Part shown: piece by piece, positions 7,975-44,761 of the stretch
Layout: each line of letters begins with the position of its first letter
Numbering within the stretch: the stretch's first letter is position 1
Source: Telopea speciosissima
Lineage: Eukaryota; Streptophyta; Magnoliopsida; Proteales; Proteaceae
DNA length: 64,000 bases
Direction of reading: 5' to 3'
Assembly (NCBI RefSeq): GCF_018873765.1
Contig: NC_057918.1
Location: 66,444,871 to 66,508,870, forward strand
Made by a program: the position numbers and the translations under genes
The notes under the pieces: model-generated
Databases searched by the model: none
Told to the model about the DNA's origin: nothing
What the model saw: the letters and a program-made list of their open reading frames with translations, nothing else

Positions 7975-8610
7975 AATCTAAAAATAATATTGTTCCTAGA
8001 TTCCCAAATAATATACCAAGTTATAATAAAAATTGAAAAAACCAAATGAGGGAAGGCTTATCAAGCTTGTAGTTCATCAAAGTAGAAATGCATAATTGTT
8101 CTAGGGAGGAATGACTGATAAACTCTGTTCTGAGACCCAGAGGACCAGCTGCCCAAATATGTTTAACCCAATCACAGGTGAGGAAAATGTGCCAATGGGT
8201 CTCGACACAAGTGCCACAGAAAGCACAAGTGGGATCGATGTGACTCCATCTCGAAATTATATCCTTAACCGAAAGCCCTGCATGTAATACACGCCAAAAA
8301 AATATTTTAAATTTAGGATGTAAATTCAGTTTCCAAAAAAACTTCCACCAAATGTAAGGAGTGAAATTAAAAAATGAAGAGGTATGGCAAAAATTAGCCG
8401 CATGTTTCGTACTAAATTTACCATCATTGCTAAGGTACACCACCAAGAGTCAGAATCATTAGAGGGGGTGATATTGATAATGTTGGGAAGAAGTGATGGT
8501 TTAGAGATTTTTAAGAGTTCCTCATCCTAACAAGAAGAAGAATTGATCAAGTGGGAGACTTTTTCAGGATACAATTTGGGAGAGTCATTGGGTAAGATTG
8601 TGAAACTAGG
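7975..8610 (-). mobile_element. LINE (L1-type), zinc-binding domain part, downstream half of a split element
   Basis: The minus-strand frame 8446-8021 reads FKIFFWRVLHAGLSVKDII, then CAFCGTCVETHWHIFLTCDW, the zf-RVT zinc-binding domain that follows reverse transcriptase in plant L1 elements. It continues from the reverse transcriptase half at 14562-16275 once Copia-1 (8611-14561) is removed. The related LINE copy at 45044-46135 aligns across this stretch and shows the sequence here runs unbroken to 7975, where the gypsy LTR starts. The RNase H and 3' tail must lie left of the window. Confidence 0.85.
8606..8610. repeat. Target-site duplication of Copia-1, left copy (ctagg)
   Basis: ctagg directly precedes the LTR start TGTTGGAATT and is repeated at 14562-14566 directly after the 3' LTR end. 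Five bases is the usual copia target duplication. Confidence 0.9.
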
Positions 8611-9327
8611 TGTTGGAATTTTTTAAAATATTGATGTGGACTTTTAGTCCCACATCGGCTATGAAAGGAAAGCTCATTGGGTTTATGTGTTAGTAGTTAG
8701 TAGTTATTATTACCACATGTAATGCTAGAAGAGATTGTACGGTGTACTTGCGAGCGAGGATGGTAACCGTCCGAGCGCGTACGCGTGTGCGTGCGCGTGT
8801 GTGAGGCGCAATGTGGCGCTTTGATGGCGCACTTTACACTTTGCACGTGCGCATTGTCGCAGTATGTCGCCTTAATCTTTTTGGGATCGACGGTGTCTGA
8901 TCAAAGGGTGCTTAGGATTGATCCGACCATTGGATCGGTGGCTGATCAAAGAGGGAGTGCAACCCTTGGTTTAACATTGACCCCAAGAGTTGCAGCCCAC
9001 ACGAACAGCCAAGGGAGCCCAGCCCAATAGTCATGACCTGTCAGGTCAAGCCATATAAGCCAATGGGTGTGACCCATCCGAACAGGCCTTGTGGGCCTAT
9101 AAATGGGCCGCGAATTCTCTCAGTCCATTATTAAAAAAATCTCTGATAGCTTCACAGTGTTACTGTCTTTGCAACCAGTAACAGTCCGCCTGATTTATCT
9201 TGGGAGGCAGGTTTACTGCAACCCTTTGCAGGATTAGGAGGGTGCAAATACTGTCTTAAGGACAGAACGATTTCGTTCGACTCAGGCCTTCTTTCTGTCC
9301 TCTCCTTTGTTGTTCAGATTTCTAACA
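8611..9327 (+). repeat. 5' LTR of Copia-1
   Basis: The LTR starts TGTTGGAATT and ends TCTAACA. A TATAAAT box is at 9098-9104, giving an expected transcript start near 9130. The conserved block tttagtcccacatcgg is at 8643-8658. Segment 9246-9260 (aaatactgtcttaag) is complementary to bases just inside the element. Confidence 0.92.
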
Positions 9328-9344
9328 ATCTTAAGACAGTATTT
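9246..9344 (+). promoter_or_regulatory. Copia-1 priming stem: LTR segment paired to primer-site position
   Basis: aaatactgtcttaag at 9246-9260 in the LTR is the exact reverse complement of cttaagacagtattt at 9330-9344. The LTR ends at 9327, then two bases (at), then the 15-base match, so the match sits where a primer binding site should be. No TGG-type tRNA site is present there. A G-T wobble pair would extend the stem by one. The same arrangement with other bases occurs in Copia-2. Self-priming is inferred. Confidence 0.7.
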
Positions 9345-9349
9345 ACTCA

Positions 9350-12300
9350 ATGGAGGAGACTGCAATCATGAAGATACCTGGGAACGAGATAAGCAAACTT
9401 GAGAATTTTGATGGGTCATTTTTCAAACGTTGGAAAGGGAAGATGTATTTCTTCCTCACTGCTTTGAAACTTGCTCATGTCCTGAACGAAGAGAAGCCAG
9501 CAGCACCGACACCGATAGACACCACTGCAGAAGCTTCAAGTGGAGAGACACCGGTGCAGAAACAGCAGCGCCAGAAGTGGGAGCAAGACGATTTCATGTG
9601 CAAGGGTTACATCCTCAATGGGTTATCAAACACACTTTATGATGTGTATGAGCCCAAATTTGCAGACAACACGTTGAGAGAACTATGGGAGGATCTCGAC
9701 AAAAAGTACAAAATTGAGGATACTGGCAACAAGAAGTTTCTTATAAGTAAGTTGTTTGATTACAGGATGGTAGGAGATAAGTCTATTATTTCACAAACCT
9801 ATGAGTTGCAAGGTCCCAAGAATCAAATCATCTCTGAGGGCCATTCTCTTGACGAATCTTTCCAAGCGTCATCTATTATTTCAAAGTTACGTTTTGCTTG
9901 GAAAGATTGTCGGAAAGAGTTGAAACAGAAGAAGGATGCAATGACTATGCAAGAGTTGATTAAGTATATCCAAGTTGAAGAGAATTCTCGCAAACTGGAT
10001 AAACTTGAATTGGAGGAAAAATCTCCAAAGGCTCATGTCATAGAAAATGCATCTTCTAAGGGCAAGAAGAGAAAGTATGATGGGAAAGGCACTATTTCTG
10101 AGAAGAAAAATGGTACATTTATTAACCCCAAAGCGGCTTGCTGGAAATGCGGAAAAGCCGGTCATTTCAAGAAACAGTGCAGAGTTTATTTCAAGGAGAA
10201 GCAACAAAAGGACCAAGCCAACATGGTTGACAATGATGACTGGGCTGCTATGATATCTGAGGTATATGCAGAGGGTGATGATGAGGAATGGTGGATCGAT
10301 TCCGGTGCAACCAAACATGTTGCCAAGAACAAAAATTTGTTCAAAGTTTATGAACCTATAGCAGATGGACAAGATCTCTTTATAGGAACTTCTTCAACTG
10401 CTAAGGTCATAGGTAAAGGCACAGTGGTTCTGAATCTCACATCCGGAAAAAAGCTTACTTTGAATGATGTACTTCATGTTCCTAATATTAGGAAGAACTT
10501 AATGTCTGTAAGCTTGCTTGACAAACATGGATTTAAAATCCTGTTTGAGTCAGGGAACATCATAGTGTCTAAAGGGGGAGTTTATGTTGGGAAAGGATAT
10601 GCATCGAACGGGATGTATAAATTTAATATGATTAATGAAAACTCATCTTCTGCTTATATTGTTTCTACTTTTGATACATGGCATTCTAGACTTGGGCATG
10701 TTAATTATAAGTGCATGAGAAATATGGTTAAATTAGGTTTATTACCAGAATGCACATCTTCTAGTCATGACAAATGTTCTATATGCATCAAGTCTAAAAT
10801 TGCTAGGAAATCTTTTAAGAAAGTAGAAAGGAATACATAACTCTTAGAATTAGTACATTCTGATTTGTGTGAGTTAGAAGGTATTCTAACTAGAGGTGAT
10901 AAAAGATATTTCATCACATTTATAGATGACTGTTCAAAATACACATATGTATATCTGTTAAGGACTAAAGATGAGGCTTTGGAGAAATTCAAAATCTACA
11001 AAGCCGAAGTGGAAAATCAATTGGATCGTAAGATTAAAATCTTACGAACTGATAGGGGAAGGGAATACTTCTTCATTGATGATTTTTGTGAAGTTTATGG
11101 AATTATCCATCAAACAACGGCACCCTATAGTCCTCAACAGAATGGAGTAGCAGAAAGAAAAAATAGGACTCTAACAGAAATGGTGAATACACTTTTACTT
11201 ACTTCTGACTTACCAAAGAATTTATAGGGGGAAGCATTAATGACTGCTTGTCATATACTTAACCGTATACCCCATAAAAAGACTAATATCACTCCCTATG
11301 AATATTGGATGAAGAGAAAACCTTCTCTTGGATATTTCAAAGTATGGGGATGTAGAGCATTGGTAAGATTAACTGATCCTAAAAGACCTAAATTAGGTGA
11401 AAAGGCAATTGAATGTATTTTCATTGGCTATGCCCAACATAGCAAGGCCTATAGATTTCTAACGATGAAATCTACAGAGACCGTTAGCCAAAATATAATT
11501 TTGGAATCTAGAGATGCTGAGTTCTTTGAGGATTCATTCTCTAGGAAACGGAAGAATGAAAATACAAACAAGGAGGATCAAGATATTGTTCAATCAAATT
11601 CTGAGAATAATGAGAGTGTTGAACTTAGAAGAAGTAAAAGAGTTAGAGTGGAAAAATCCTTTGGTCCAGATTTCTATCAATTCTTGGTAGAAGGAAACAG
11701 AAATGAAGTTACATATTCTTGTGTGTATAATGTTGAACATGATCCATTGACTTTTCGAGAAGCCATGAATTTTCAAGATTCTGCTTTTTGGCAAGAAGCT
11801 ATAAATGATGAAATAGATTCTCTCATGGGCAATAAAACATGGGTTTTAACAGATTTACCTCCTGGATTTAAATCTATTGGTTGTAAGTGGATTTTTAAGC
11901 GAAAGCTTAAAGCTGATGGAACCATTGATAAGTTTAAAGCTAGGCTTGTAGCAAAGGGCTTTAAGCAAAAAGAAGGCATTGATTATTTCGATACATATGC
12001 TCCTGTTGCTAGAATTAGTACAATTAGATTGTTAATTGCTTTAGCATCGATTAATAAACTTGTTATACACCAAATGGATGTTAAAACTGCTTTTCTAAAT
12101 GGAGATTTAGAAGAAGAAGTTTACATGGAACAACCTGAAGGGTTTGTTTTGAAAGGCCAGGAAAGTAAGGTTTGTAAACTAGTCAAATCTTTATATGGTC
12201 TAAAACAAGCTCCTAAGCAATGGCATGATAAATTTGACCAAAAGGTTGTAGCAAATGGATTTAGAATAAATGAATCTGATAAATGTGTTTATTCTAAATT

Positions 12301-13288
12301 CAAGAATAGACATGGTGTTATAATATGTTTATATGTTGATGATATGTTAATCTTTGGTACTAATACAAGCACCATTTTGGAGACAAAGGCTTTCCTATCT
12401 TCGTGTTTTGATATGAAAGATATGGGTGAAGCAAATATAATTTTGAGAATCAAAATTGTTAGATCCTCTGATTGTATTTCTTTAACACAGTCTTATTACA
12501 TAAAGAAAATATTAAAGAAATTCAATCATGAGGACTGTAAACCAGTTGCTACCCCATATGATCATTCTATTAGATTAATTTCTAATGAAGGGAATTGTAT
12601 ATCTCAATTGGAATACGCTAGTATCATTGGCAGCTTAATGTATGCCATGCAGTGCACTCGTCCTAATATAGCTTTTGTAGTTGGTGTTTTGAGTAGGTTT
12701 ACTCATAACCCTGGACAAATTCATTGGAATGCAGTTTCTAGAGTACTTAAGTACTTAAAGGGCACAATGAATTATGCATTAAGTTATAAGGATTTTCCCG
12801 CAGTACTAGAAGGATACACAGATGCTAATTGGATCACAGGATCCGATGAATCAAAGTCCACAAGTGGTTGGATATTTACTTTGGGTGGAGGATCAATTTC
12901 TTGGGGATCCAAGAAACAGACTGTAGTTTCATACTCCACTATGGAGTCTGAATTTATCGCTTTAGCAATGGCAGTAAAGGAAGCAGAATGGCTTAGGGAC
13001 CTCTTAACAGAGATTCCTCTGTGGCCTAAGCCAATACCTGCTATATCAATATCTTGTGATAATGAAGCAACATTATCAAGGGCTTATAATAAAGTCTACA
13101 ATGGAAAGTCAAGGCATATCAGTTTAAGACATGGCTATGTAAGAGAACAACTCATCAAAGGAGTTGTGACTATTAGTTATGTGAAGTCAAAGAAAAATTT
13201 GGCTGATCCCTTTACAAAAGGCCTGGGTAGGGATGTGGTATGGAAGACTTCCAGGGAGATGGGTTTAAAGCTTTTAAATGAGAGGTAA
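9350..13288 (+). pseudogene. Copia-1 gag-pol region
   Basis: The start codon at 9350 lies 23 bases after the LTR. Gag carries the zinc knuckle CWKCGKAGHFKKQC near 10140. The protease motif WWIDSGATKHV is near 10290. Integrase has its H-H-C-C zinc segment (HSRLGHVN to CSICIKSK) near 10680-10800 and the motif SPQQNGVAERKNRT near 11130. Reverse transcriptase has YVDDMLIF near 12330, and RNase H reads GYTDANWITG near 12810 and [10 protein letters not shown] near 12940. The order is Ty1/copia. About two breaks interrupt an otherwise long reading region. Confidence 0.9.
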
Positions 13289-13822: not shown

Positions 13823-13868
13823 ATTATTTTAAAAATTGGGGGAAATTATTAGAATTTTTTAAAATATT
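13823..13868 (+). promoter_or_regulatory. Copia-1 polypurine tract in a hairpin loop
   Basis: Arms tattttaaaaatt (13825-13837) and aattttttaaaatatt (13853-13868) pair with one bulged base. The 15-base loop is gggggaaat plus the first six bases of the 3' LTR. Arms are all A/T, so the stem alone is weak evidence; the matching layout in Copia-2 strengthens it. Confidence 0.5.
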
Positions 13869-14561
13869 GATGTGGACTTTTAGTCCCACATCGGCTATGA
13901 AAGGAAAGCTCATTGGGTTTATATGTGTTAGTAGTTAGTAGTTATTATTATCATATGTAATGCTAGAAGAGATTGTACGGTGCACTTGCGAGCGAGGATG
14001 GTAACTGTCCGAGCGCGTACGCGTGTGCATGTGCATGCATGAGGCGCAATGTGGCGCTTTGATGGCGCACTTTGCACTTCGCACGTGCGCATCATCGCAG
14101 TATGTCGCCTTAATCTTTTCGGGATCGACGGTGTCTGATCAAAGGGTGCTTAGGATCGATCCGACCGTTGGATCGGTAGCTGATCAAAGAGGGAGTGCAA
14201 CCCTTGGTTTAACATTGATCCCAAGAGTTGCAACCCACACGAACAGCCAAGGGAGCCCAGCCCAATAGTCATGACCTGTCAAGTCAAGCCATATGAGCCA
14301 ATGGGTGTGACCCATCCGAATAGGCCTTGTGGGCCTATAAATGGGCCACGAATTCTCTCAATCCATCATTAAAAAAATCTCCGATAGCTTCACGAGTGTT
14401 CTGTCTCGCAACGATGTGATCCCTTGATTTATCTTGGGAGGCAGGTTTACTGCAACCCTTTGCAGGATTAGGAGGGTGCAAATACTGTCTTAAGGACAGA
14501 ACGATTTCGTTCGACTTAGGCCTTCTTTCTATCCTCTCCTTTTTTGTTCAGATTTCTAACA
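13847..14561 (+). repeat. 3' LTR of Copia-1
   Basis: It aligns end to end with 8611-9327. Its first bases are TATTAGAATT where the 5' copy has TGTTGGAATT. A short block near 14390-14425 is much more different from the 5' copy (about 9150-9195) than the rest. Confidence 0.92.
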
Positions 14562-16275
14562 CTAGGAATAGAGGATATCCAGGGATCAGTCCAGAAAAAA
14601 GTATCTTGGCCATTTCCTATTTTCCTAAGGGTGAAAGATCTCAACAAAGGAACAGTACTATGAATACTATTCCTTGACCAAGAGCCTCGATGCATGAGAG
14701 TTTTGGGGTTGAATAGAGAGGAATTAGGAAAGTATTTAGCTTTAAGAATTTTGGCCCACAAGGAATCACCATCAATGAGGAGATTCCAGCCTAGTTTGAG
14801 TAGGAGGGCTTGATTGTGGACTTTGGTTTTCCTGAACCCCAGACCCCCAATAGTTAAGGGTCTAAACATGGTCTTCCAAGAGATAAGAGTGGTTTTCCTA
14901 TTACCCAAAGGACCGCCATTCCAAAAATTTAGACAGATAGAATCGATATTTTTGCACACAGAAACTGAGAAAGAAAAGCAACTCATCAGGTATGAAGAAA
15001 TAGAAGCTAAAATCGATTTAATAAGCACCCTTCTTCCTGTAAAAGATAAAAGATTAGCTCTCCAACAGTTAAGCCGATTTCTGATTCTATTGACTACTGG
15101 AGTCAAAGTCTTTGTTTTAGATCTGCAAGGAAACAAGTTAGTACCCAGATAGATAGTATCATGGGACATTTCAGAGATTCCCAAGACATTTGAGAGTTTA
15201 GTTCTGTCAGCAATAGTCACATTTTTACTGAAATATATCCCACTTTTTGAAAAATTAATCAACTGGCCTGAAAGATCAGAAAACAAATCAAGAATGGCCT
15301 TAATAGTAAGTCTTCAGATGTTGCTCTACAAAAGATGAAAATATCATCAGCGAAAAGAATGTGAGAAATTTCAGGGACCGATCTGGCAATTTTGATTCTC
15401 CTAAAGAGGTCAAGATCACGGTAAGTTTGTAGAAGTCTAGAAAGTACCTCCATTTCTATAAGGAAGAGATACAGACTAAGGGGGCATCCCTGTCTTAAGC
15501 CACAGGTTCCCCTAAAATGGCCAAAAGGTGACCCATCCATTTTGATAGAGAAAGAAGTGGAGGTCATAAGCTCAGAAATGAGGGAGCCCCAAGACTTCCC
15601 AAACCCTAGGAAATTAAGGATGACCGATATGAAAGACCATTCCATTTTGTCGTAAGCTTTGGACATATCAATTTTGATAGCCACATGACCCACCTGACCT
15701 TTTTTGTGGTTCAGGAAGTGAAAAATTTCACGAGCTATAATCACATTATCAGAAATTTGTCTGATTGGGAGATATGATTGAGGGAAGAAAGGATTTCAAT
15801 CTATTGGCCATCATTTTAGCAATATATTGTAAGAGACATTAAATAAGCTAATAAGTCGAAAATCCCCAACCGCATTGGCATTGTCAGATTTGGGTATAAG
15901 GCAAATCAAGGTATGGTTGACCCCACTCGGCAAACAAGCAGATTTGAAAAAATTGGACACAAAGTCAAACAGTTCATTTTGAAGTAAATCAAAGAATTTT
16001 TGGAAGAAAATAGCTTGGAAACCATCAAAACCAGGAGCCTTGACAGGGCTCATCACGAAAACAACAGACTTAATTTCTTTCAAAGAATGTAACTTGCATA
16101 TAAAACTCTAGTCATCACAGTTCACCAAAAGTTGAAACAAGCACTCAACAAAATCAGAATCAAGGGGATTAGAAGAAGTAAAAATTGAGCCTAAATGATC
16201 AGCAAAAGCCAAAGCAATATCCTTGGGGTTAGTAAGAACCTCCCCACTCTTCCATCTTGAATTCAAAACTTGCAG
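14562..16275 (-). mobile_element. LINE (L1-type), reverse transcriptase part, upstream half of the split element
   Basis: The minus strand from 16083 downward reads SPVKAPGFDGFQAIFFQ, then IDMSKAYDKMEWSFI, then ILFADDIFIFCRA (catalytic F-ADD, near 15330), then LGTNLFPCRSKTK and the connecting segment GNGQDTFFWTDPW. The frames are shifted and stopped several times (changes near 15800, 15275 and in the upstream part near 16110), so it is dead. Sequence with LINE-like coding (FADHLGSIFTSSNP) extends to about 16275 and then ceases, and no endonuclease is present, so the element was 5'-truncated on insertion. Confidence 0.85.
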
Positions 16276-17869: not shown

Positions 17870-20800
17870 GACCCACTACTCAAGGTCTACTCCTTGATGC
17901 TGAGAATAAGCAAGTGGAGAGCATGGTGGTGGCGGTGAAAGACTAGCTGAGGAGGCTCAAGAGCGTTGCTTATGATGTAGATGATGTGTTTGATGAGCTC
18001 AACTATGAATCTTTAAGACATAAAATGGAGATCCAAATCCAGTACCGAATGAAGAAACTGATGCCCGGTAAGGTACGCAACTTTTTCTCACGCTCCAACC
18101 CATTTGGGTTTCGTCTTAAAATGGCCCATAAGTTTAAGGACATTAATGAAGCACTGGATGGCATCAGAAACGATGCAATTAGCTTCAACCTTGGGGAGTA
18201 CTACCGGAGTACTCATCATCATCAGCTTATTCCACCACATCCATGATCAATAAAAAAGACCGGCAAACCTTCTCTTTTTTGTAGATGATAAAGAAATATT
18301 TGGAAGGGATGCTGAGCAATCAGAATATGCTTGTCAACTGTACTACCAACAATACTGATCAAATCATTTCGGTCTTCCCCATTGTAGGAATGGTGGGGAC
18401 TTGGGAAGACCACTCTTGCCCAATTGATCTACAATGATCCGTTGATTGTGAAGCATTTTGATTTAAGAATGTGGGTATGTGTGTCTGAACCATTTGAAGT
18501 CCAGAGACTTCTAAAAGAAATGATTGAATCAGCTACTGGTGGAGCTAAATGTGAGGCATCAAACTTGGATGTCACAGCACGTAAGCTCCAAGAGAAGTTG
18601 ATGGGTAAACGGTTTTTGCTTGTACTGGATGATGTTTGAAGCGAAGATGGTGAAAAATGAGATAACTTGATAAAGCCCTTAAAATCTGGCAGTGTAGGAA
18701 GCAAGATTATTGTTACTACACGAAACATTGAAGTTGCAAAGATGATGACCCCAAATTACATTCGTCCCTTGGGATTATTATCAAAAAAAGATTGTTGGTC
18801 TTTGTTTAGTCGAAGAGCATTTAGCAATGGAGGGCCACAAGAAACCCAGAGGTTGGTGGAAATTGGAAAGAGAATTGTTAAAAAATGTGGAGGAGTGCCT
18901 TTAGCAGTGAAGATCTTAGGAAACCTAATGCACTCCAAAATAGAGGAACGTGAGTGGTCGTCCATGGAGCAAGCAAATGAAATTTGGAATTCACTACAAG
19001 ATGGTAGTAGAGGAATAATGCCAATATTGAAGTTGAGTTATGATCATCTGCCATCACAATTGAAACGTTGTTTTGCATATTGTTCAATATTCCCCAAGGA
19101 TTATAAATTTGATATAAAAATGTTGATACAATTATGGATGGCATAGGGATTCCTTCAAACTCCCAAAGGAAGCAAACAATTAATGGAGGATGTAGGCAGT
19201 GAATATTTCAATATTTTGTTATGCAATTCTTTCTAAGGGAAAATATGGAGATATAGAGAGATGCATGATCTTGTACATGATCTTGCACAAATTGTTGGAA
19301 TGCTTGAATATTCCACCATGGAGGAGGCCATTACTGTGGAAGACGACATTTCTGATAAAGTTTGTGGTTTGTCATTTTTTTTAGGTAATGAGGGAAGACT
19401 TCAAACTCGAGAAGCCTTGGAGAAGACAAAGAAATTGCGAACATTAATAGCTTGTCCGCCATCAAGGTGGTTGGTCTCAAATATTAATATTGATATGTTG
19501 ATGAAAAACTTCCAGAGCTTGTGTGTGTTGGATGTATCACACTGCCTCATAAAAGAGGTGCCACCATCAATAAGAAAATTGAAACATTTAAGGTACCTTG
19601 ACTTGTCTAGGAATATATCAATTGAAGTGTTGCCAAAGTCTATCACTAGCCTTTACAATTTACAGACGTTAAAAGTCAACACTTGCTTTGAACTTCGAGA
19701 GCTTCGCAAGGAAATGAGAAAGATGGTTAGCTTGAGACATTTTGAATTTGAGGGTAAATGCACTGAGATGCTAGTTGAGATGGGGAGATTGACTAATCTG
19801 CAAACATTAACACATTTTATAGTAGGCAAAGATGAAGGACACAGTCTTGAAGAGCTGAAGTGCTTGAACCTCAAAGGGAAACTGACCATAAGTGGTCTGG
19901 AGAATATTGTAACAATAGAAGAAGCCAGGGAGGCAAATTTGAGAGGAAATAAACATGATATTCGTGAGTTAACATTAATATGGGGGAGTTCTAATACTGG
20001 CATGAATGATGATGATGTGTTAGAAGGCCTAGAACCTCATCCAAACTTGAAAAGGCTTTCCATCGGTGGTTTTGGCGTTGCAAAATATCCTTCATGGATG
20101 GAAAAATTGTTAGCATACAAAAATTTGATTGACTTGGTACTCCAAGGATGCTATAGATTGGAATATGTCCCACCCATGCGTGGAGAGCTACCTTTTCTTA
20201 GGTCTTTTGTTAAGTGGAATGGAAAAGGTCAAATGTATTGATCGGGAGTTCTATTATAGCAGTAGCAACAACAACAATAATAGTAATACTTCTGGAGCAT
20301 CTTCTTATTCTTCTTCTTCAGGGATAATGGTAGCATTTCCATCTCTTAAAATACTAAGGCTAAATACTATGCCTAATTTGGTTGAATGGTTGGAAGTGTT
20401 GCCTTCCTTTCCATCCCTTGAGGAGTTGTATGTCTCATCATGCCCCAAGCTGAAAACCATGCCAACTCAATTCCTTTCCCTTAAAAGGTTCAAATTTGGT
20501 TATTTTCCAAATAAGATGGCACTAAAGTCGTTGTCAAGCAACCTTGTCTCTCTCAACTATCTTACTATTGAAAGGTGTCGAGACCTCAAGTCTGTGCCAG
20601 AGGGTTTGCTACAAAACAACGCAAATATTTTACATGAATTGTGTTTTGGAAGATGCCCCAAGCTTGAAACAATTTTTCCAAGTAAAGAAGAAGAAGTAGA
20701 AGAAGAAGGACAAGTGGTGGGATCTGGATCTTCTTCTTCCCACCACCACCTACAGCAGCCGCTACTACTACTTGTCTTTCCGTTTCTTCAATGCTTAAAA

Positions 20801-21130
20801 ATAATTGACTGTCCTCTTGTAAAGACTTTTCCGGACTTACAAGGAATGACTTCTCGTCGATGTTTGAAACTAATTGGCTTTAAGGAGTTGAAGTCGCTAC
20901 CAGAGGGGTTGCAGTGGCTCACTAAGCTTGACACGTTAGAAATTGGTCAGTTTTCAGAGGAGCTGGAACAACTGGATACTATAAAAGGGGAAGAGGATCT
21001 CCAACACCTTGTCTCCCTTCGAAGACTAAGACTCTTTGGATGGCCTCAGCACAAGAATCCCCAACACCAACTTAAGCATCAACTCACCCATTATCTACAA
21101 TTTTTGAGGACGGAAGAGGATTATTGGTGA
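17870..21130 (+). pseudogene. NLR relic A: CC-NB-ARC-LRR resistance gene
   Basis: The order matches RGA-type intracellular immune receptors. The CC remnant reads LRRLKSVAYDVDDVFDELN near 17950-18005. The P-loop is near 18389-18420, kinase-2 FLLVLDDV near 18616-18639, RNBS-B GSKIIVTTR near 18697-18722, GVPLAVKILGN near 18892, [14 protein letters not shown] near 19069 and MHDLVHDLAQ at 19261. Leucine-rich repeats run to the stop at 21128-21130. It is dead: the N-terminus is missing, Trp codons became stops at 17944, 18637 and 18658, a stop sits at 19144 in WMAEGF, and frames shift near 18245, in the P-loop (one extra base near 18393), near 19235 and near 20215. An Asn/Ser-rich simple stretch (about 20260-20320) splits the LRRs. 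Relic B at 30911 is roughly 90% alike by eye. Confidence 0.9.
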
Positions 21131-21798
21131 CGTCTACTAATCTTTGACTTTTAGATTACTAATTAATCATGCAGATTTTTTTTTTTTAAATTGGAGTTTC
21201 TTTTTGTTTGAGTTAATTATCTGAATTTCTATCCAAAAAAAAAAAAAAAAGTTAATTATCTGAATCACTATATAATTAATTTTACAGGTATTATTAATCA
21301 AATTGGTCCTATCTAGCTAGCTCGTTGATGGAAGTTCCAAAAAATCCCCCTATTTTTGCTAAGATATGTTGTTCAGGTGAGTTTTATTTCTAGCAAATTA
21401 TATATATTTTAGGTTGTTTATATTTCTTTTATCTCTTTTTTATTGTTAAATCATCATATAAATCTGAATTTATTGGTCTCTTAATTACTTCCTCTTTTTT
21501 TTTAATTCAATATCAACTTCTATATCTTTTGGCTCTTTAATTGATAGATGGAACGAATTTAAGAGATCGATCGATCGATATGTTTCCCATTCTTGGACGG
21601 TGGATGGTTTCCTTTCTTGACGTCCATGCATCTTTTGCTCCCAGTTAGTTGATACGTCTAGTACTTAATTGTAAATTTATCTTTTAGATTTTTTTGGTAT
21701 GGGATTTTAACTTTATTATTTCTTTTCTCAGCTGCAAGCTTATTTATTATTATAATATTACTATATATGAATTTCATCTTTCTTTCTTCTTCTACTTC

Positions 21799-22199: not shown

Positions 22200-22893
22200 T
22201 GTTGGAAAAAACTCTGTTTGAAGAAGGAAACTTCAAACTGCTTTGAATGCGATCTCGCTATCTTAAAGGAGATATTTGCCCCACACGACAAATTCACCTT
22301 CAGGAATCAACAAAGCAATAAATATAAAACACAGAACTCCACTTAGAGATACTGAATTGCAAGAGGGAGAGATAATTCGTTTGAACACATGACTCCCATC
22401 TTATAGAAGTGGAGCACCTCTTCTGAATAGACATATCTATTCATTCTATATCCATTAGATCAATTGTCATATGATCTAACAGTCCAGATTAAACCAGAGA
22501 TGAACCTATTTCACAACAGTCATATCCTATCAGACGTGACCTTAGGATCTTCTAATCCGATGGATCTGATCATTTAAAAAAAACAACGTACCAGATCAGA
22601 TCGCTTGCATCGCGATGCAAGAGTGCAAAGTGCTAAGTGCGTGCGTACGCCACTAACGCCTCTACAGCCCACTGCCCACGCCGAGCATGTGCGTGCGCGT
22701 GTGCAGACGGCACGCCGTCCTCGCATATACACTGTAGAATGTCTCCCTTTTCCGATTTAATTCAAGAGATAAAGAAGGTAATATAATAAATACCATTTAT
22801 AACTTTTGTAGTTTTCCGATGTGGGACTAAAGCATTTTTCCCAAAATAACAAATTATTTATTTAATCTCTCATTTATTACAATCTATCTAACA
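22200..22893 (-). repeat. 3' LTR of Copia-2
   Basis: On the plus strand it starts tgttggaaaa and ends tatctaaca. It aligns end to end with 27427-28119. The conserved LTR block reads ccgatgtgggactaaa at 22816-22831 on the plus strand. Confidence 0.92.
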
Positions 22894-26400: not shown

Positions 26401-27402
26401 TTCAAAGGTCTTGAACTGTATCTTGTCATTGCACACATGAACCGTTGCTCCTGAATCAAGCCACCAATCTTGAGATTTCACCACACTAGCCATATGCAAT
26501 TCAGTAATCATACCAATTTCCATCATTGCAACTAGATCTTGTGGTGCGATTCAACAACATTTGCTTTGTCCGGACACTCTGTTCTTCCGATACTTGCAAT
26601 CACGAATGTAATGACCCTTTTTTCACAATGAAAACATGCTCTGTCTTTCTTATCTTTGCTGCTATTCTTGAAAACTCCCTTCTTGTTGATCTTTAGTTTC
26701 TTATGAAACTTCTTAACTCCACTTTGTTCAACAGTGTTCACTTTCGAACCAATGACCAAGCCATCACGAATTCTATTCTCTTCCTCAATTCGTAGATGCT
26801 TTTCGAGTTGTCCAACAGACAAATCTTCTGTCATATGAAGAATGAAGAAGTTTCTTTCTGTAATCATTCCAACTGGGGGGAAGTTTAGATATAATCGCCC
26901 CCACTTGGAGTAAATCAGAAACTGTGACTTCAAGATCACGGAGTTTTCCCACTATAACTTGAAGATCATGAAATTGATCCATGATACTGACACCATCACT
27001 CATACTGAATTCAAAATATTTCATGGTGAGAAATTTGCTCATACCTATTTTCTCAGTTCTGTATTTCTCTTCAATCTGTTTCCAAATTTCATATGGTGAC
27101 TTGATTGGCTTGTAGTAATTATAGAGACGATCTGAGAGACTATTCAGAATATATCCTCGGCAGATTAACTCATCTTCTTCACGCTTACTTCTTTCTTTCT
27201 TCACAGCATCAGTGTCTTTATCAGACGGTTCTAGCAATGGTTGCAACACAGAACTTAGCAAATAAAAGATCTTCAGACGAGTCAACAGAAACACCATCTT
27301 ATCTTGCCAACGGGTGTAGTTGGTGCCATCAAAACGTTCAAGTTTGACGAAGTCTGGGGACGTCATCATCTTCAAAGCAGCGTTGTCTAATCCTCCTTCC
27401 AT
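23425..27402 (-). pseudogene. Copia-2 gag-pol region
   Basis: Read downward from 27402, gag begins MEGGLDNAALKMMTSPDFVK, with its zinc-knuckle region near 26640. The protease motif [11 protein letters not shown] is near 26460. The integrase zinc segment (HACLGHLN to CEVCVQSK) is near 26070-25975 and the motif [14 protein letters not shown] near 25600. Reverse transcriptase has YIDDMLIF near 24365 in place of YVDD, and RNase H reads [10 protein letters not shown] near 23880. Pol from protease to RNase H is one long open region of 1033 codons; gag is interrupted. Confidence 0.9.
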
Positions 27403-27409
27403 GGTAACA

Positions 27410-27504
27410 AAATATCTCCTTTAAATTGTTGGAAAAAACTCTGTTTGAAGAAGGAAACTTCAAACTGCTTTGAACGCGATCTCGCTATCTTAAAGGAGAT
27501 ATTT
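27410..27504 (-). promoter_or_regulatory. Copia-2 priming stem: LTR segment paired to primer-site position
   Basis: Plus-strand aaatatctcctttaa at 27410-27424 is the exact reverse complement of ttaaaggagatattt at 27490-27504. The LTR boundary is 27427, so the first segment lies two bases (at) inside the element, exactly as in Copia-1, and the LTR segment lies 63 bases from the LTR end (67 in Copia-1). No TGG-type tRNA site is present. The bases differ from Copia-1 but pairing is kept, including a flanking G-T wobble. Confidence 0.7.
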
Positions 27505-28119
27505 GCCCCACACGACAAATTCACCTTCAGGAATCAACAAAGCAATAAATATAAAACACAGAACTCCACTTAGAGATACTGAATTGCAAGAGGGAGAGAT
27601 AATTCGTTTGAACACATGACTCCCATCTTATAGAAGTGGAGCACCTCTTCTGAATAGACATATCTATTCATTCTGTATCCATTAGATCAATTGTCATATG
27701 ATCTAACAGTCCAGATTAAACCAGAGATGAACCTGTTCACAACAGTCATATCCTATCAGACGTGACCTTAGGATCTTCTAATCCGATGGATCTGATCATT
27801 TAAAAAAAACAACGTACCAGATCAGATCGCTTGCATCGCAATGCAAGCGTGCAAAGTGCTAAGTACGTGCGTACGCCACTAACGCCTCTACAGCCCACTG
27901 CCCACGCCGCGCATGTGCGTGCGTGTGTGCGGACGGCACGCTGTCCTCGCATATACACTGTAGAATGTCTCCCTTTTCCAATTTAATTCAAGAGATAAAG
28001 AAGGTAATATAATAAATACCATTTATAACTTTTGTAGTTTTCCGATGTGGGACTAAAGCATTTTTCCCAAAATAACAAATTATTTATTTAATCTCTCATT
28101 TATTACAATCTATCTAACA
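27427..28119 (-). repeat. 5' LTR of Copia-2
   Basis: TG...CA ends, 693 bases. The conserved block is at 28042-28057 (ccgatgtgggactaaa on the plus strand). It is followed by the target duplication taaaa at 28120-28124. Confidence 0.92.
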
Positions 28120-30651: not shown

Positions 30652-33600
30652 TACTATTAACTGATGAAGTCAGCCAGTTAAATTTATTTAAAACCCTATT
30701 CTTTTCGATTGATGAAACAAAATCATAGGGGCTGTCCTGGGTCCCAGAGAATATTCGGGGTAAAAAAATAAAAATAAAAAATTATTTAAAACCCTAAACT
30801 ACCCTTGACCAGTGTATAGTTATTATTTTACCCTTGGATCTAAAAAACCCAACATGTACTCTTTTTTTTAAAATTAAAACAAGTACTCCTTCCCCAAATT
30901 GCTAAACTGAATGACGAACAAAAAGGACCGGCAAACCTTCTCTCTTATAGACGATAAAGAAATATTTGGAAGGGATGCTGAGCAATCAGAACTAGTGAAT
31001 ATGCTTGTCAACTGTACTAGCAATGATCAAATCATTTCGGTCTTCCCCATTGTAGGAATGGGGGGACTTGGGAAGACCACTCTTGCCCAATTGGTCTTCA
31101 ATGATCCATTGACAAAGGACCATTTTGATTTAAGAATGTGGGTATGTGTGTCGGAACAATTTGAAGTTGAGAGACTTCTGAAAGAAATCATAGAATCAGC
31201 TGCTAGTGGAGCTAAATGTGATGCATCAAACTTAGATGTAATAACACGTAACCTCCAAGAGAAGTTGATGGGTCAACGGTTTTTGCTTGTACGGGATAAT
31301 GTTTGGAGCAAAGATGGCCAGTGAAAAATGGGATAACTTGATAAAGCCCTTAAAATCTGGTGGTGTAGGTAGCAAAATTATTGTGACTACATGCAACAAT
31401 GAAGTTGCAATGATGATGACCCCAAATTATATTCATCTCTTGAGATTATTATCAAAAAAGGATTGTTGGTCTTTGTTTAGTCGAAGAGCATTTAGCAATG
31501 GAGGGCCACAATAAACCCAGAGGTTGGTGGAAATTGGAAGGAGAATTGTTAAAAAATGTGGAGTGCCTTTAGCAATGAAGGTCTTAGGAAACCTAATGCA
31601 CTCCAAAATAGAGGAACGTGAGTGGTCGTCCAGGGAGCAAGCAAATGAAATTTGGAATTCACTACAAGATGGTAGTAGAGGAATAATGCCAATATTAAAA
31701 TTGAGTTATGATCATCTGCCATCACAATTGAAACATTGTTTTGCATATTGTTCAATATTCCCCAAGGATTATAAATTTGACACAAAAATGTTGATACAAT
31801 TATGGATGGCAGAGGGATTCCTTCAACCTCCCAAAGGAAGCAAACAATTAATGGAGGATGTAGGCAGTGAATATTTCAATATCTTGTTATGCAATTCTTT
31901 CTTTCAAGATGTGGAGAAGGACAAATACGGAGATATAGAGATATGCAAGATGCATGATCTTGTACAAATTGTTGGAGAGCTTGAATATTTCACCATGGAG
32001 GAGGCCAATACTGTGGAAGATGACATTTATAATGAAGTTTGTGGTTTGTCATTTTTTCGAGGTAATGAGGGAAGATTTCAAACTCGACAAGCCTTGGAGA
32101 AGGCAAAGAAGTTGCGGACATTAATAGCTTGTCGGCCATCAAGGTGGTTGGTCTCAAATATTGATATGTTGATGAAAAACTTCCAAAGCTTGCGTGTGTT
32201 GGATGTATCACACTGCAGCATAAAGGAGGTGCCACCATCAATAAGAAAATTGAAACATTTAAGGTACCTTGACCTATCTTGGAATTTCTCAATTGAAGTG
32301 TTGCCTGAGTCTATTACCAGCCTCTACAATTTACAAACATTAAAACTCAAGCATTGCTATCGTCGCCAAAAGCTTCCCAAGGAAATGAGAAAGATGGTTA
32401 GCCTGAGACACTTGGAATTTAAGCGCAGATGCACTAAGATGCCTGTTGAGATGGGGAGATTGACTAAATTGCAAACATTAACATATTTTATAGTAGGCAA
32501 AGATGAAGGATGCAGTCTTAAAGAGCTGAAATGCTTGAACCTCAAAGGGGAACTGACCATAAGTGGTCTGGAGAATGTAACAAGCTGCGGAATAGAAGAA
32601 GCTAGGGAGGTAGATTTGAAAGGGAATAAGCATGATTTTCGTGATTTAACATTAGAATGGCGGCATTTTAATACTGGCATGAATGATGATCATGATGATG
32701 TGTTAGAAGGCCTAAAACCTCATCCAAACTTGAAAAAGCTTTCCATCAATAACTTTGGCAGTGCAAAATATCCTACTTGGAATGCAAACGCTGGTTTGTT
32801 AGCATACAAATCTTTGATTGAGTTGGTACTCTTTGGATGCAATGGATTGGAATATGTCCCAGTCATGCTCGGGGAGCTACCCTTTCTTAGGGTTCTTTGG
32901 TTAAGAGGAATGAAAAAGGTCAAATGTATTGATCAGGAGTTCTATTATTGCAGCAACAACAACAACAATAACAACAATACTACTACTGGAGCATCTTCTT
33001 CTTCTTCAGGGACAATGGTAGCATTTCCATCTCTTAAAACACTAAGGCTAGATAATATGCCTAATTTGGTTGAATGGTTGGAAGTGTTGCCTTCCTTTCC
33101 ATCCCTTGAGCAGTTGGGGGTCTCATTATGCCCCAAGCTGGAAACCACGCCAAGTCAATTCCTCTCCCTCAAATGGTTAGAATTTGGTGCTGATACAAAT
33201 AAGATGGCACTAAAGTTGTTGTCAAGCAACCTTATCTCTCTCAACTATCTTACTATTTCATGGTGTCGAGTCCTCCAGTCTGTGCCAGAGGGGTTGCTAC
33301 AAAACAACGCAACTGTTCTACATGAATTGTGCTTTAGAGAACACCCCGAGCTTGAAACAATTTTTCCAAGTAAAGAAGAAGAAGTGGAAGAAGGACAAGT
33401 GGTGGGATCTTCTTCTCCCCACCACCACCTGCAGCAGCCACTACTACTAGTCTTTCCATCTCTTCAAAGCTTTGAAATAATTAATTGTCCTCTTATAAAG
33501 ACTTTTCCGGACTTACAAGGAATGACTTCTCTTCGAAGGTTGGAATTAACCGGATTTAAGGAATTGAAGTCAGTACCAGTAGAGGGGTTGAAGTGGCTCA

Positions 33601-33960
33601 CTATGCTTGAGACGTTAGAAATTGGTCGTGTAGATACTGAATTTTGTCACCCCCCGGCGATGATGACAACAGGACAGGGACAGACATCGATATCTCTCTG
33701 AAGAAGGACTTTTGTCCCTACATCTAAACCAAATCACCCTAACATCCCTAAAATGACTTATAAGACCCTTTTACCAAATGCTGAAGGAGGTACTGCTCAC
33801 CTTCCCCAACCACGGTGGTCCCGCTAAGACCAAGGGAGAAAATTTTCTGAAGAGTCAAAAGGGAGAAAAGAAACCCAAAAAGACCAAGCCCATGGGCCCA
33901 GACACACCCTGAACCCCAAAAATGGCCCATTTGGGCCCAAAAGGTGAAATGAGGGGGACC

Positions 33961-33988
33961 ACACTGTCCACGGCACCGTGGACAGTGT
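33961..33988. repeat. Perfect 13-base inverted repeat in the LTR-like insert
   Basis: acactgtccacgg and ccgtggacagtgt are separated by the two bases ca. It lies about 120 bases upstream of the TATA box and is followed by further partly inverted copies (cgacactgtggaggtcc). Confidence 0.85.
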
Positions 33989-34284
33989 CCCACGACACTG
34001 TGGAGGTCCCCCACGGCAATGGTGTATGGAGCCACGTGACCGTGGAGGTTTTTGACGTCAGCAGGATGACGTCAACCACGGCGCCATGGAGGACCTATCC
34101 AGACCTATAAATAGGAAAGTCCCCCTCCCCTCATTTCATGGATTCCAGGCCTAGGGAGACCCTCCCAGTCCGATTTTTACCCTCTTTCTAGCCTTTGTGA
34201 GTGGGTTTTGAGTAATATTCCGAGTTGTGGGTAAATCCATCGATTACCCGCCTGAGTGAAGAGTGCTTCCCTACTAGTCAAGAT

Positions 34285-34399
34285 GTTATTCCGTTCGCAT
34301 ACGGATAACAAAAGCTTCCTTTTATAGCCGTTATTCTGTCTGTATACAGATAACGAGAATCCCTTATACAGCCGTTACTCTGCCCGAAGTCTGAGTAAC
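34285..34399 (+). repeat. Three tandem hairpins at 44-45 base spacing
   Basis: gttattccgt...acggataac (34285-34309), gttattctgt...acagataac (34330-34354) and gttactc...gagtaac (34374-34399). Units are spaced 45 and 44 bases. Stem bases differ between units but pairing is kept. They lie about 170-290 bases after the TATA box, in the expected transcript leader. Confidence 0.65.
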
Positions 34400-36103
34400 G
34401 ATACCCATCTCATATAGGCCTTACTCTATCCGACAAGAGAGACAAGCCGAATGTCCGTCTTCACCTGAGCTGTGGGACATCACATATTTCATATTTGGTG
34501 TATTTTCATTATTTTCTTGTATTTCTTGACAGATATCTGTCTCTTTCCTTCTTATTATTTTTGGCATAATGTAGACAATTAAAGTAATTCGCTTTAGTGT
34601 ACGTAGTAAATGATTTTTTTTCTTTATCATGATTAGTGCATCATAACTTAGCCTTGCATGTTAGTATAGAATATATTATTAAGGGAGAATATTCAAAAAC
34701 ACGCATCTAATAGAAAGACCAGTTTATCCAGGCTTAGGTGGATGCCTAACACCTTCCTACTCTCGTAACCTGACTACTTATCCTGAATCTCTGACCAGAC
34801 CATATGGAATCATGTAGCCCTTTCCACTAATCCCAGATGGGGTTACACCCATTGGGTCCTAGGCCCTAATCCTAGGTGGCGACTCCATTTATTTATGAAG
34901 TATGATCCCAATCCCCATAATGATATGTCGTTATTCATTGAAGTCAATCCTTGTTGCCATAAGGTTGAGGAACCCTCGTCCCGAGGACCATGGTACTTAC
35001 GGGTTGATTTTCAGAGGGGCTGGAACAAGTGGATTATATAAAAGGGGAAGAGGATCTCCAACACCTCGTCTCCCTTCGAAGACTAAGACTTGTTGGGTGG
35101 CCTCACCACAAGAATCCCCAACACCAACTTCAGCACCACCTCACTCATAATAATCTGCAATTTTTGAGGACGAAAGAGGATGCTTTAAATGGTAAGTTCT
35201 TCTACTAATTAACTATGGACTTTTAGATAATCAATCATGCAGATTTTTATTAATTGGAGCTTCTTTTTGTTTGAGTTAATTATCTTAATCACTATATATA
35301 ATTTACAGGGATTAATATTAATCAAGGTCCTATCTAGCTAGCTAGCTCGTTGATGGAAATCCCCAAAAAAAAAAAAACCCTATTTTTGCTAAGATGTTGT
35401 TCAGGTGAGGTTTATTTCTAGCGAGTTATATATTTTATTGTTTATATTTCTTTTATCTCTTTTTAGTTGTTAAATCATATAAATCTGAATTATTGTTCTC
35501 TTAATTGCTTCCTCTTTTTTATTCAATATCATCTTATATATATCTGGTTCTTTATTTAATAGATGGAACGAAGAGAGAGAGATCAATCGATATGTTTGGA
35601 TCATTTACAAGTAAAACTTAATTTCCCATTCATGGGCGGTGGAGGGTTTCTTGACATCCATGCATGCATCTTCCGCTCCCAGTTACTTGGTAGCTCTACT
35701 TAATTTTGTAAATTTATTTTTACATTTTTTGTGGTATGGGATTAACTTATTTCTTTTCTCAGCTGCTAGATTATTTATTATATTCCTATGTATGAATTTC
35801 ATCTTTTCTTCTTTTTCTTTTGTGATTTTATTGGATTTAAATGGAAAGAGCAATCTCTACTACTCTATGAATTTCAAATTTTTAATGGACTTAGATTAAT
35901 TTTGTAAACATCTTTACTATTACTAATTATTTCGGGGAAGAAGCAGGTCATGGTCATGAATTGTTTCACCTGAAAAACTAACACTTGATGGGTGGCCTCA
36001 CCACAAAACTAACCTCTGTGTATTTCACAGACAGTTATATAAATAAATGGTTTTTTTTTTTTTAAGAGCTTCATTTGTCGATTATTAACTTATCTTCTAT
36101 TAA

Positions 36104-39000: not shown

Positions 39001-40071
39001 GCCAAAGGTCCTCTGCCCCTCCCCTTCACCTTGAGTGAGTGTATTTGTCTGAATAGAGGTTTTCTCTATTTTGGAAACCTCTTATTCGTTTTCTCTATTT
39101 TGGCAATTTCTTATTCGGATATCCTCTCCAATCTTTCATTCCTTGTATATCTCTATCTCTTTTAAGAGGTGCCACATCTGATATCAAATTCATTGGTTTC
39201 CCAATTCAGATCATCTATGACGCAGGTGCCCGTAGCGGCCTATGTGGCACAGACTGGGCCGCCTGTGCAATGAACGCCTTACCCCCGCTCGGGCAAGGCG
39301 TTTGGGCAAGGGTAAGATGGTCTTTGCACTCGCGGCTCAGTTTGAGTTGCTCAGGCTGCTACAGGCAGCGCGTCGTAGAGGATCTGGATCCTTGGTGGAG
39401 GATCTGGATCCTTGGTTTCCTATTATGTAATAGCTGGTGGCTAGGGCTGTATGCATTTTATATGCAGTCTCCTATTGGAGACCAACACTTAATGAAGAAA
39501 ATAGCTTCTCCATCACACCGCCGATACTCCAACGAACTAGCGAAACATATACAAGTGGTTTGGAAATAAGTTTTGGATTTGACTTCAAGCGCTTCATGTT
39601 GGTTGATGTGACCCAAAGTGCCACATCAGTTAGGTGGCTTTTAGGGCCGATGCTCAATTAGAATACAAGAAGGCATAATTCGGGGATCTATATAAAGCAG
39701 CTTAGAACCTCAACCAAGTAAAAGGGCAAAGGGAGCAGCCTTCGGAGAATCCATTCTATCACAAGGCAAGGAAGGAATCCCCAACGACGAAGGAAGCTTC
39801 CACAATTTCTAGGCACATTACATTACTACCCACTATTGGATTTTTTATAAATTCAGCCATCAGATATATATTCCAAAAGCATTTGTCTGGTTATTGTTGT
39901 TGTTTTGGCTCTCTTTGTTCAATTTTGATTTCAGATTCAGAGGGTGATTTCAAATTTTTTTTTAAAAGTGTGTAGTATGATCATATTTACTGGAAATAGA
40001 AAGTAAAAAAATCAAAATTCCAAAATAGTTGGAGAGATATTTTGAGATTTCTATTTTGTTGATTTAACACA
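39001..40071. other. Intergenic with a GC-rich patch, no gene recognised
   Basis: 39000-39200 may be the 3' end of the copia scrap before it. A GC-rich stretch at 39215-39400 (cgtagcggcctatgtggcac, cgctcgggcaaggcg) is unlike its AT-rich surroundings and may be dispersed repeat DNA, with a short direct repeat gaggatctggatccttgg at 39379 and 39399. No frame is convincing. Confidence 0.4.
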
Positions 40072-40289
40072 TGTTAAGATAATAGACATGGATTGATTTG
40101 GATTGCCGTGAATGGCTTATCTGTTTGTATTGATTGATTACATTATATAGAAAGATTACATGAAATAATAAAGGTAAGATACAATAATGAAAGATATACA
40201 GGCTGATTTCTCTCCTACAAATATACAGGCTAATTTCTCTCTACAATATCTTCATCATCCTAATTGGGATGAAGATATAAATGGTAAGA
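40072..40289 (-). repeat. 3' LTR of Copia-3
   Basis: On the plus strand it runs tgttaagataatag to aaatggtaaga. The element-strand start is TCTTACC rather than TG. The polypurine tract gagggggag adjoins it. Confidence 0.9.
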
Positions 40290-44530: not shown

Positions 44531-44543
44531 CCTACTGATACCA
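44531..44543 (-). promoter_or_regulatory. Copia-3 primer binding site (initiator Met tRNA type)
   Basis: On the minus strand TGGTATCAGTAGG follows directly after the LTR end CTTAACA. TGGTATCAG is the standard copia site. Confidence 0.85.
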
Positions 44544-44761
44544 TGTTAAGATAATAGACATGGATTGATTTGGATTGCCGTGAATGGCTTATCTGTTTGT
44601 ATTGATTGATTACATTATATAGAAAGATTACATGAAATAATAAAGGTAAGATACAATAATGAAAGATATACAGGCTGATTTCTCTCCTACCAATATACAG
44701 GCTAATTTCTCTCTACAATATCTTCATCATCCTAGTTGGGATGAAGATATAAATGGTAAGA
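44544..44761 (-). repeat. 5' LTR of Copia-3
   Basis: Matches 40072-40289 except at two bases. Followed by the target duplication acaca. Confidence 0.92.

Follow-up and report, generated by a model that had tools for sequence, protein, structure and literature searches.

Probable self-priming from an internal LTR segment in a Ty1/copia lineage of Telopea speciosissima

Self-priming is predicted for 12% of plant LTR retrotransposons and, among Ty1/copia elements, for the TAR lineage in the relevant passages of PMC6317226, which also cite an earlier proposal of self-priming for Houba and Osr-1; where PMC4600332 touches on the subject, it cites a maize paper (SanMiguel and others) among works on self-priming. 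According to the passages of PMC6317226 on the method, the prediction was made where a complement of 10 bp or more began 0-5 bp past the LTR. The two elements described here, Copia-1 and Copia-2, lie in a 64,000-nucleotide stretch of the Telopea speciosissima genome (the window), and their complement, of 15 bp starting at 2 bp, falls within these limits. As in the TAR lineage (Houba, Osr-1) as portrayed there, the bases with which their internal region opens are complementary to the 5' LTR of the same element; the likeness to TAR consists of this feature of the primer-binding site (PBS) together with a split among reverse transcriptase (RT) sequences within one genome, in a tree that holds no named TAR references. 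The original prediction for this DNA supposed that self-priming might be undescribed in plant copia elements. This supposition fails in view of the TAR prediction and of the Houba and Osr-1 proposal; self-priming in plant copia elements is already predicted, and Copia-1 and Copia-2 are a well-supported case of it. No further report of self-priming in plant copia elements was found in the open-licence literature, as judged by titles and the starts of abstracts. The passages of PMC6317226 on TAR mention neither the sequence nor the length of a primer, nor covariation, nor a CTTAAG motif; the present analysis adds to them the covariation, the exact limits of the primer, a CTTAAG-like primer end that is conserved, and a seemingly internal primer.

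Among elements outside Ty1/copia, the Tf1/sushi chromoviruses (Tf1, Tj1) come closest, since in these an LTR-derived primer pairs with a PBS just past the LTR, as in Copia-1 and Copia-2. Moreover, in the 'pretzel' of three duplexes that PMC10085805 describes for Tf1 in its account of the fold, sequence next to the PBS is paired with a part of the 5' LTR that lies downstream of the primer, the same topology as found here. Tf1/sushi elements are Ty3/gypsy chromoviruses, however, whereas the gag frame of Copia-1 has Copia-type Pfam domains and that of Copia-2 has Retrotran_gag_2; and the primer lies at the transcript 5' end in Tf1 but is probably internal in the lineage of Copia-1 and Copia-2. 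Osser, Bryco and Bianca are plant copia elements that also have a non-standard primer site, but their PBS pairs with a host half-tRNA, according to the part of PMC6317226 devoted to them. The fungal GalEa copia elements likewise have no tRNA PBS and carry a palindrome directly past the 5' LTR; unlike in Copia-1 and Copia-2, a U5 repeat complementary to the site was never detected by the authors, in the words of the section concerned (PMC5445492). Set against these systems, the sequences of Copia-1, Copia-2 and their relatives make it very likely that the two elements belong to a plant Ty1/copia lineage in which minus-strand DNA synthesis is primed by part of the element's own transcript.

The putative primer segment and its binding site in Copia-1 and Copia-2

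Copia-1 lies on the plus strand. Its 5' LTR (8611..9327, ending in ...TCTAACA) aligns to its 3' LTR (13847..14561, delimited by the LTR-LTR alignment) with 675 of 719 columns identical, and the start of the 5' LTR was placed by reading the flanks, where TG follows a CTAGG duplication (8606-8610 and 14562-14566). A 2-nt spacer, AT (9328..9329), separates the LTR end from the PBS CTTAAGACAGTATTT (9330..9344), which is the exact reverse complement of the self-primer segment AAATACTGTCTTAAG within the LTR (9246..9260). The 3' OH of the primer is inferred to lie at 9260, giving an exact, testable primer boundary, 9260|9261. A putative TATA box, assigned by motif match, is found at 9098..9104, 148 nt upstream of the primer segment. 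The gag region and the start of the polyprotein occupy 9350..10840 (Pfam Retrotran_gag_2, zf-CCHC, Pol_BBD and gag_pre-integrs), and the open frame at 11240..13288 was assigned to reverse transcriptase by its RT stretch alone, which matched the RT of relatives and was used in the RT tree.

Copia-2 lies on the minus strand, with a 5' LTR at 27427..28119 and a 3' LTR at 22200..22893, the two differing by 12 mismatches and one gap over 699 aligned columns. Its self-primer segment AAATATCTCCTTTAA (27490..27504) is the exact complement of 27410-27424; the 2-nt spacer, again AT, is at 27425..27426, and the PBS TTAAAGGAGATATTT (27410..27424) is the exact reverse complement of 27504-27490. The gag frame (26785..27402) contains Retrotran_gag_2.

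The geometry put forward in the original prediction is confirmed. In both elements the LTR segment and the site pair exactly over 15 bases, and the site starts 2 nt beyond the terminal CA of the LTR, the LTR ends being fixed at 9327 and 27427 by the LTR-LTR alignments and the flanks. From the primer 3' end to the LTR end there are 67 nt in Copia-1 and 63 nt in Copia-2, and in each the flanking G-T wobble adjoins the primer 3' end. The stems are built of different bases, as had been stated: they differ at six of the 15 positions, each time by a double change.

Copies, relatives and covariation

A DNA search of the Telopea speciosissima genome gave at least 40 matches for each family (F1, that of Copia-1; F2, that of Copia-2), of which 30 each were cut out. 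Pairing over 15 bp was perfect in 20 of 30 F1 junctions and in 13 of 23 F2 junctions, the remaining seven F2 loci matching in the LTR part only. Loci lacking the full junction (4 of 38 in F1 and 6 of 30 in F2) were left out of the pairing counts, and L066, which is the 3' LTR of Copia-2, was excluded, hence the F2 denominator of 23. Four weaker F1 loci from a pattern search (L001, L002, L003 and L007), all imperfect, stand outside the 20 of 30; with them the count is 20 of 34. Mismatched copies, named beforehand as a finding that would refute self-priming, do exist, but not in a refuting form: in both families the imperfect junctions mostly show one change only, and some changes recur in two copies (L021 and L027, L033 and L035, L045 and L046, L048 and L058). 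Mostly single changes, a few of them common to two copies, are what is expected of ageing insertions.

Protein searches with the gag of Copia-1 and of Copia-2 found at least 150 places each, and the 401-base upstream stretches of 40 loci, chosen for spread, were compared. In all 40, A(A/T)(C/T)A, which resembles the end of an LTR, is followed after 2 nt by a CTTAAG-like site. Under uniform scoring, with two loci extended by additional upstream stretches, the site pairs with an upstream segment at 11 or more of 15 positions in 34 loci, at 14 or more in 22 and at all 15 in 12. The six loci below 11 are L137, L138 and L139, which look mutated, L149, which by eye retains about 10 of 15 primer bases, and L150 and L152. 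In these last two and in L164, what precedes the LTR end is by eye foreign to the family, which suggests recombination or rearrangement; the 11 of 15 pairing of L164 is probably due to chance. In L153 the full 15 bp were recovered once sequence further upstream was included. Primers differ between families (AAATACTGTCTTAAG, AAATATCTCCTTTAA, AAATTTCATCTTAAG, GTTCCACACCTTAAG, ATCTAAATCCTTAAG, ATCTAAAACCTTAAG, GTTTTTAGACCTTAAG, ATTAAAGACCTTAAG and ATCAATTACCTTAAA), and each is matched by its own PBS. L163 has the PBS-like sequence TTTAAGGTAATTGAT and no stem inside the first 401-base stretch; in the next stretch upstream lies ATCAATTACCTTAAA, at 190 nt from the LTR end, a primer that had been derived from the PBS before it was found, in what was not a formal blind test. 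In this lineage the LTR segment is 14-16 nt long and lies 52-195 nt before the LTR end, and in the best-kept copies the site is its exact complement.

Comparison of 5' and 3' copies places the primer in the LTR in L158 and L142, since the copies agree through ...AACA and then diverge. In L156 they agree to about ...AACA, and the 3' copy of L155 and of L157 also contains the primer region, the compared stretch stopping before the LTR end; for L151 the stretch compared does not contain a 3' LTR. Scans of viral and bacterial contigs found no relatives, so that all relatives come from one genome.

Covariation between the LTR segment and the site, proposed earlier as the check on pairing, is seen across eight families of this same genome. 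Each family was represented by one locus, the best-paired one, a choice that favours the stem. Over the nine 5'-most columns 71 of 72 cells are paired, against a shuffled mean of 35.6, and the one shuffle in 20000 of PBSs among families that equals 71 of 72 is probably the unshuffled order itself. Eleven of the 15 stem columns vary among the eight families. The last six columns vary little and hold little evidence, 2438 of 20000 shuffles matching the pairing observed there. Of the 120 pairs in the eight representatives, 119 are Watson-Crick and one, an outermost pair, is G-T; when all 35 scored loci are taken, 473 of 525 cells are Watson-Crick, 10 are G-U and 42 are neither, a count that includes three mis-scored FA loci (L149, L152 and L153) in which the second helix, described below, was picked as the stem. 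The primers of three members of one family contain TTTCGT, TTTCAT and TTTTGT (L141, L145 and L168), and each has a mirrored PBS, while L140 and L148 of the same family are mismatched. As evidence that the pairing is used, covariation is much stronger than the complementarity search behind the earlier plant copia prediction, as that search appears in the passages of PMC6317226 considered here.

Primer ends, leader folding and the proposed course of priming

Stem length was 14-16 bp in each of the 19 loci chosen for this comparison. Just past the primer 3' end, 17 of them have G-T or G-G, and L154 and L168 have a Watson-Crick pair there; the primer end thus seems to be the exact point at which copying begins, since with a primer longer by one base the copied PBS would be expected to have C at that position. 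The primer end is usually ...CTTAAG, followed by G, and CTTAAG is a palindrome. In five of the eight elements examined, a TATA-like box precedes the primer by 148-249 nt; in the other three the pattern is absent or the stretch too short, and in Copia-2 TATAAG was read from the sequence about 128 nt upstream of the primer. Because the box lies well upstream in those five, the primer is probably internal to the transcript rather than its 5' end. The primer of Copia-1 starts 148 nt past its TATA-like box, which makes reasonable the earlier estimate of about 115 bases after the predicted transcript start. An internal primer would need an RNA cut at a putative site, which counts against this reading.

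Self-priming would proceed as follows. The transcript would fold back, or two transcripts would pair, joining the LTR segment to the PBS; the RNA would be cut after the last primer base (usually ...CTTAAG, then G); and reverse transcriptase would extend the primer 3' end into the spacer and then the LTR. When the plus strand copied the attached primer, the PBS would be rewritten as the exact complement of the LTR segment. Primer and PBS would stay matched while their sequence drifts, because the PBS is rewritten from the primer in each round. If the new PBS is a copy of the primer, this would also explain the nearly pure Watson-Crick pairing of the best-kept copies, as selection for an RNA helix alone should tolerate G-U; this argument draws on the best-paired representatives, which lowered our confidence in self-priming slightly. 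With an internal primer, either the template would be cut at the primer, giving a short strong-stop DNA and a need for poly(A) beyond the primer, or the primer would act in trans.

More tentatively, we suggest that this copia lineage may use, in place of the transcript 5' end, a primer of about 15 nt that is excised from within the RNA and has both ends defined, a suggestion that we rate at a little less than an even chance. The ends, a GGNNC-like context before the primer and ...CTTAAG then G after it, belong to the same suggestion and share its tentative standing. If it is true, lock and key could drift freely, as each round would rewrite the site from the primer, and the lineage would have come independently to self-priming like that of Tf1, in a copia-type form whose primer is made differently. 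Host small RNAs directed against the tRNA-Met primer site are known (miR845 in Arabidopsis). The primer site of these elements would be unrecognisable to such small RNAs, which could let the elements escape host defences.

Folding of the leaders gives a mixed picture. In pseudoknot-free folds the probability of the primer:PBS helix is 0.00 in the leaders of both Copia-1 and Copia-2, and their lowest-energy folds also do without it; the value is 0.38 in L157, 0.79 in L158 and 0.91 in L151. A second helix joins the part of the LTR past the primer to the leader or the gag start, and it competes or forms a pseudoknot with the primer:PBS helix. In Copia-2 this helix, of the U5-leader type, has 10 bp, between an LTR arm (TTCAAAGCAG, 27465..27474, minus strand) and a gag-start arm (CTGCTTTGAA, 27371..27380, minus strand); its 10 bp were matched in none of 200 shuffles (L041, the window copy), with a duplex p of 0.003. 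The second helix is also present in L140, L141, L145, L147, L151, L155 and L157, and in one family its paired letters change together (L140 compared with L147). Taken as a lineage-specific pseudoknot it was rejected, because equally strong helices occur in some tRNA-Met elements: it reaches p<0.05 in six of the 19 lineage loci, all of them F2 or Fx, and p<=0.01 in 9 of 40 tRNA-Met controls, and it is treated here as an ordinary U5-leader helix.

These folds bear on whether the element's own RNA primes in trans, as a cut 15-mer or a leader fragment placed on another transcript, which would be a variant of self-priming and is not counted against it. Since the primer:PBS and U5-leader helices cross in several families, folding in cis needs a pseudoknot; a cut in cis would leave a strong-stop DNA of about 69 nt in Copia-1 and would demand poly(A) beyond the primer in the 3' LTR; and the palindromic CTTAAG end points the same way. 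Yet no observation separates trans from cis, and the Tf1 pretzel, which has the same crossing, is described in the part of PMC10085805 on its structure as being formed by the 5' UTR of the mRNA. We regard priming in trans as rather unlikely, though it deserves to be kept in mind.

Alternatives to self-priming, and the rest of the window

If the pair were instead a structural RNA helix, serving in packaging, dimerisation or translation control, another, unrecognised RNA would prime. That the U5-leader helix occurs in several families indicates that leader structure is under some constraint, and the lack of the primer:PBS helix in the pseudoknot-free folds of Copia-1 and Copia-2 also favours this alternative. 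The position of the stem argues otherwise. As controls we took 40 elements from the best 150 matches of Pfam Retrotran_gag_2. All 40 match the tRNA-Met site TGGTATCAGAGC in 10-12 of 12 bases (12 in 20 elements, 11 in 17 and 10 in three), and the stem of Copia-1 and Copia-2 sits exactly where these sampled relatives have their tRNA-Met-like site. In none of the 40 did a self stem of more than 7 bp start near the tRNA-Met site (the longest were of 4-7 bp). In five controls other LTR-leader stems reach 12-13 bp at places apart from the PBS, and long stems as such are therefore not unique to the lineage. The best match of Copia-1 and Copia-2 to the tRNA-Met site is 7 of 12, which sets them apart from the tRNA-Met-primed type. 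Moreover, the stem begins 2 nt from the LTR end, has a sharp end and contains few G-U pairs in the best-kept copies, and none of 20 tRNA loci fits as the other priming RNA. Together these points make a purely structural helix improbable.

Self-priming by an internal LTR segment is, by comparison, a well-supported inference, backed by the covariation of eight families, by the contrast with the tRNA-Met type and by a primer that was predicted and then found. The RT tree, of 29 rows, splits 19 rows of the self-primed lineage from 10 tRNA-Met rows (97/99 support; 98% of 200 bootstrap trees), within one genome, with an arbitrary root and a small tRNA-Met sample. Fifteen of the 19 lineage rows have a read stem and four were labelled open, of which L163 has since been resolved. 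Of the 36 stretches put in, nine lacked an RT match and a single match fell short of the length needed; these were left out.

Priming by a half-tRNA or another fragment of a host tRNA, of the kind seen in Osser or Bianca, is a more remote alternative, which draws on the reports for some plant copia lineages in the relevant part of PMC6317226. It is countered by the site itself, which varies between families and yet matches each family's own LTR. Against the sites of nine families the best tRNA identity was 9-11 of 15, among 20 of the 62 tRNA loci listed, from which initiator Met is probably absent; none of these 20 goes beyond 8 of 12 against the tRNA-Met site. A good tRNA match, which the original prediction had set against its own reading, is accordingly lacking among the 20 loci compared, and we consider a half-tRNA primer very improbable. 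A chance inverted repeat can be set aside, given about 1e-6 expected occurrences per element (8.1e-07 for Copia-1 and 2e-06 for Copia-2, counting exact matches of the PBS complement within an LTR with the same base composition) and pairing found across families with covariation.

Upstream of the primer of Copia-1, at 9190-9245, lies a stretch that by eye resembles the sequence in the same place in L133, L136-L139, L143, L146, L165 and L163. In several families it reads, also by eye, like TATC(T/C)TGGG(A/G)...TTTGCA (or similar)...GGGNC, and in several the variable part of the primer appears by eye to be framed by conserved flanks. Copia-2 sits between two long similar stretches, 18395-21425 and 31062-35453, which are about 12.7 to 14 kb apart, are 82-97% alike in the pieces listed and are perhaps duplicated leucine-rich-repeat genes. 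A third element, Copia-3, has short LTRs (40070-40289 and 44542-44761; two differences in 220 aligned columns) and a reading frame in several broken pieces; TGGTATCAG adjoins its LTR, in agreement with the tRNA-Met-type site assigned to it earlier. The window also contains a tandem array with units of about 59 bp, at 1056-1739.
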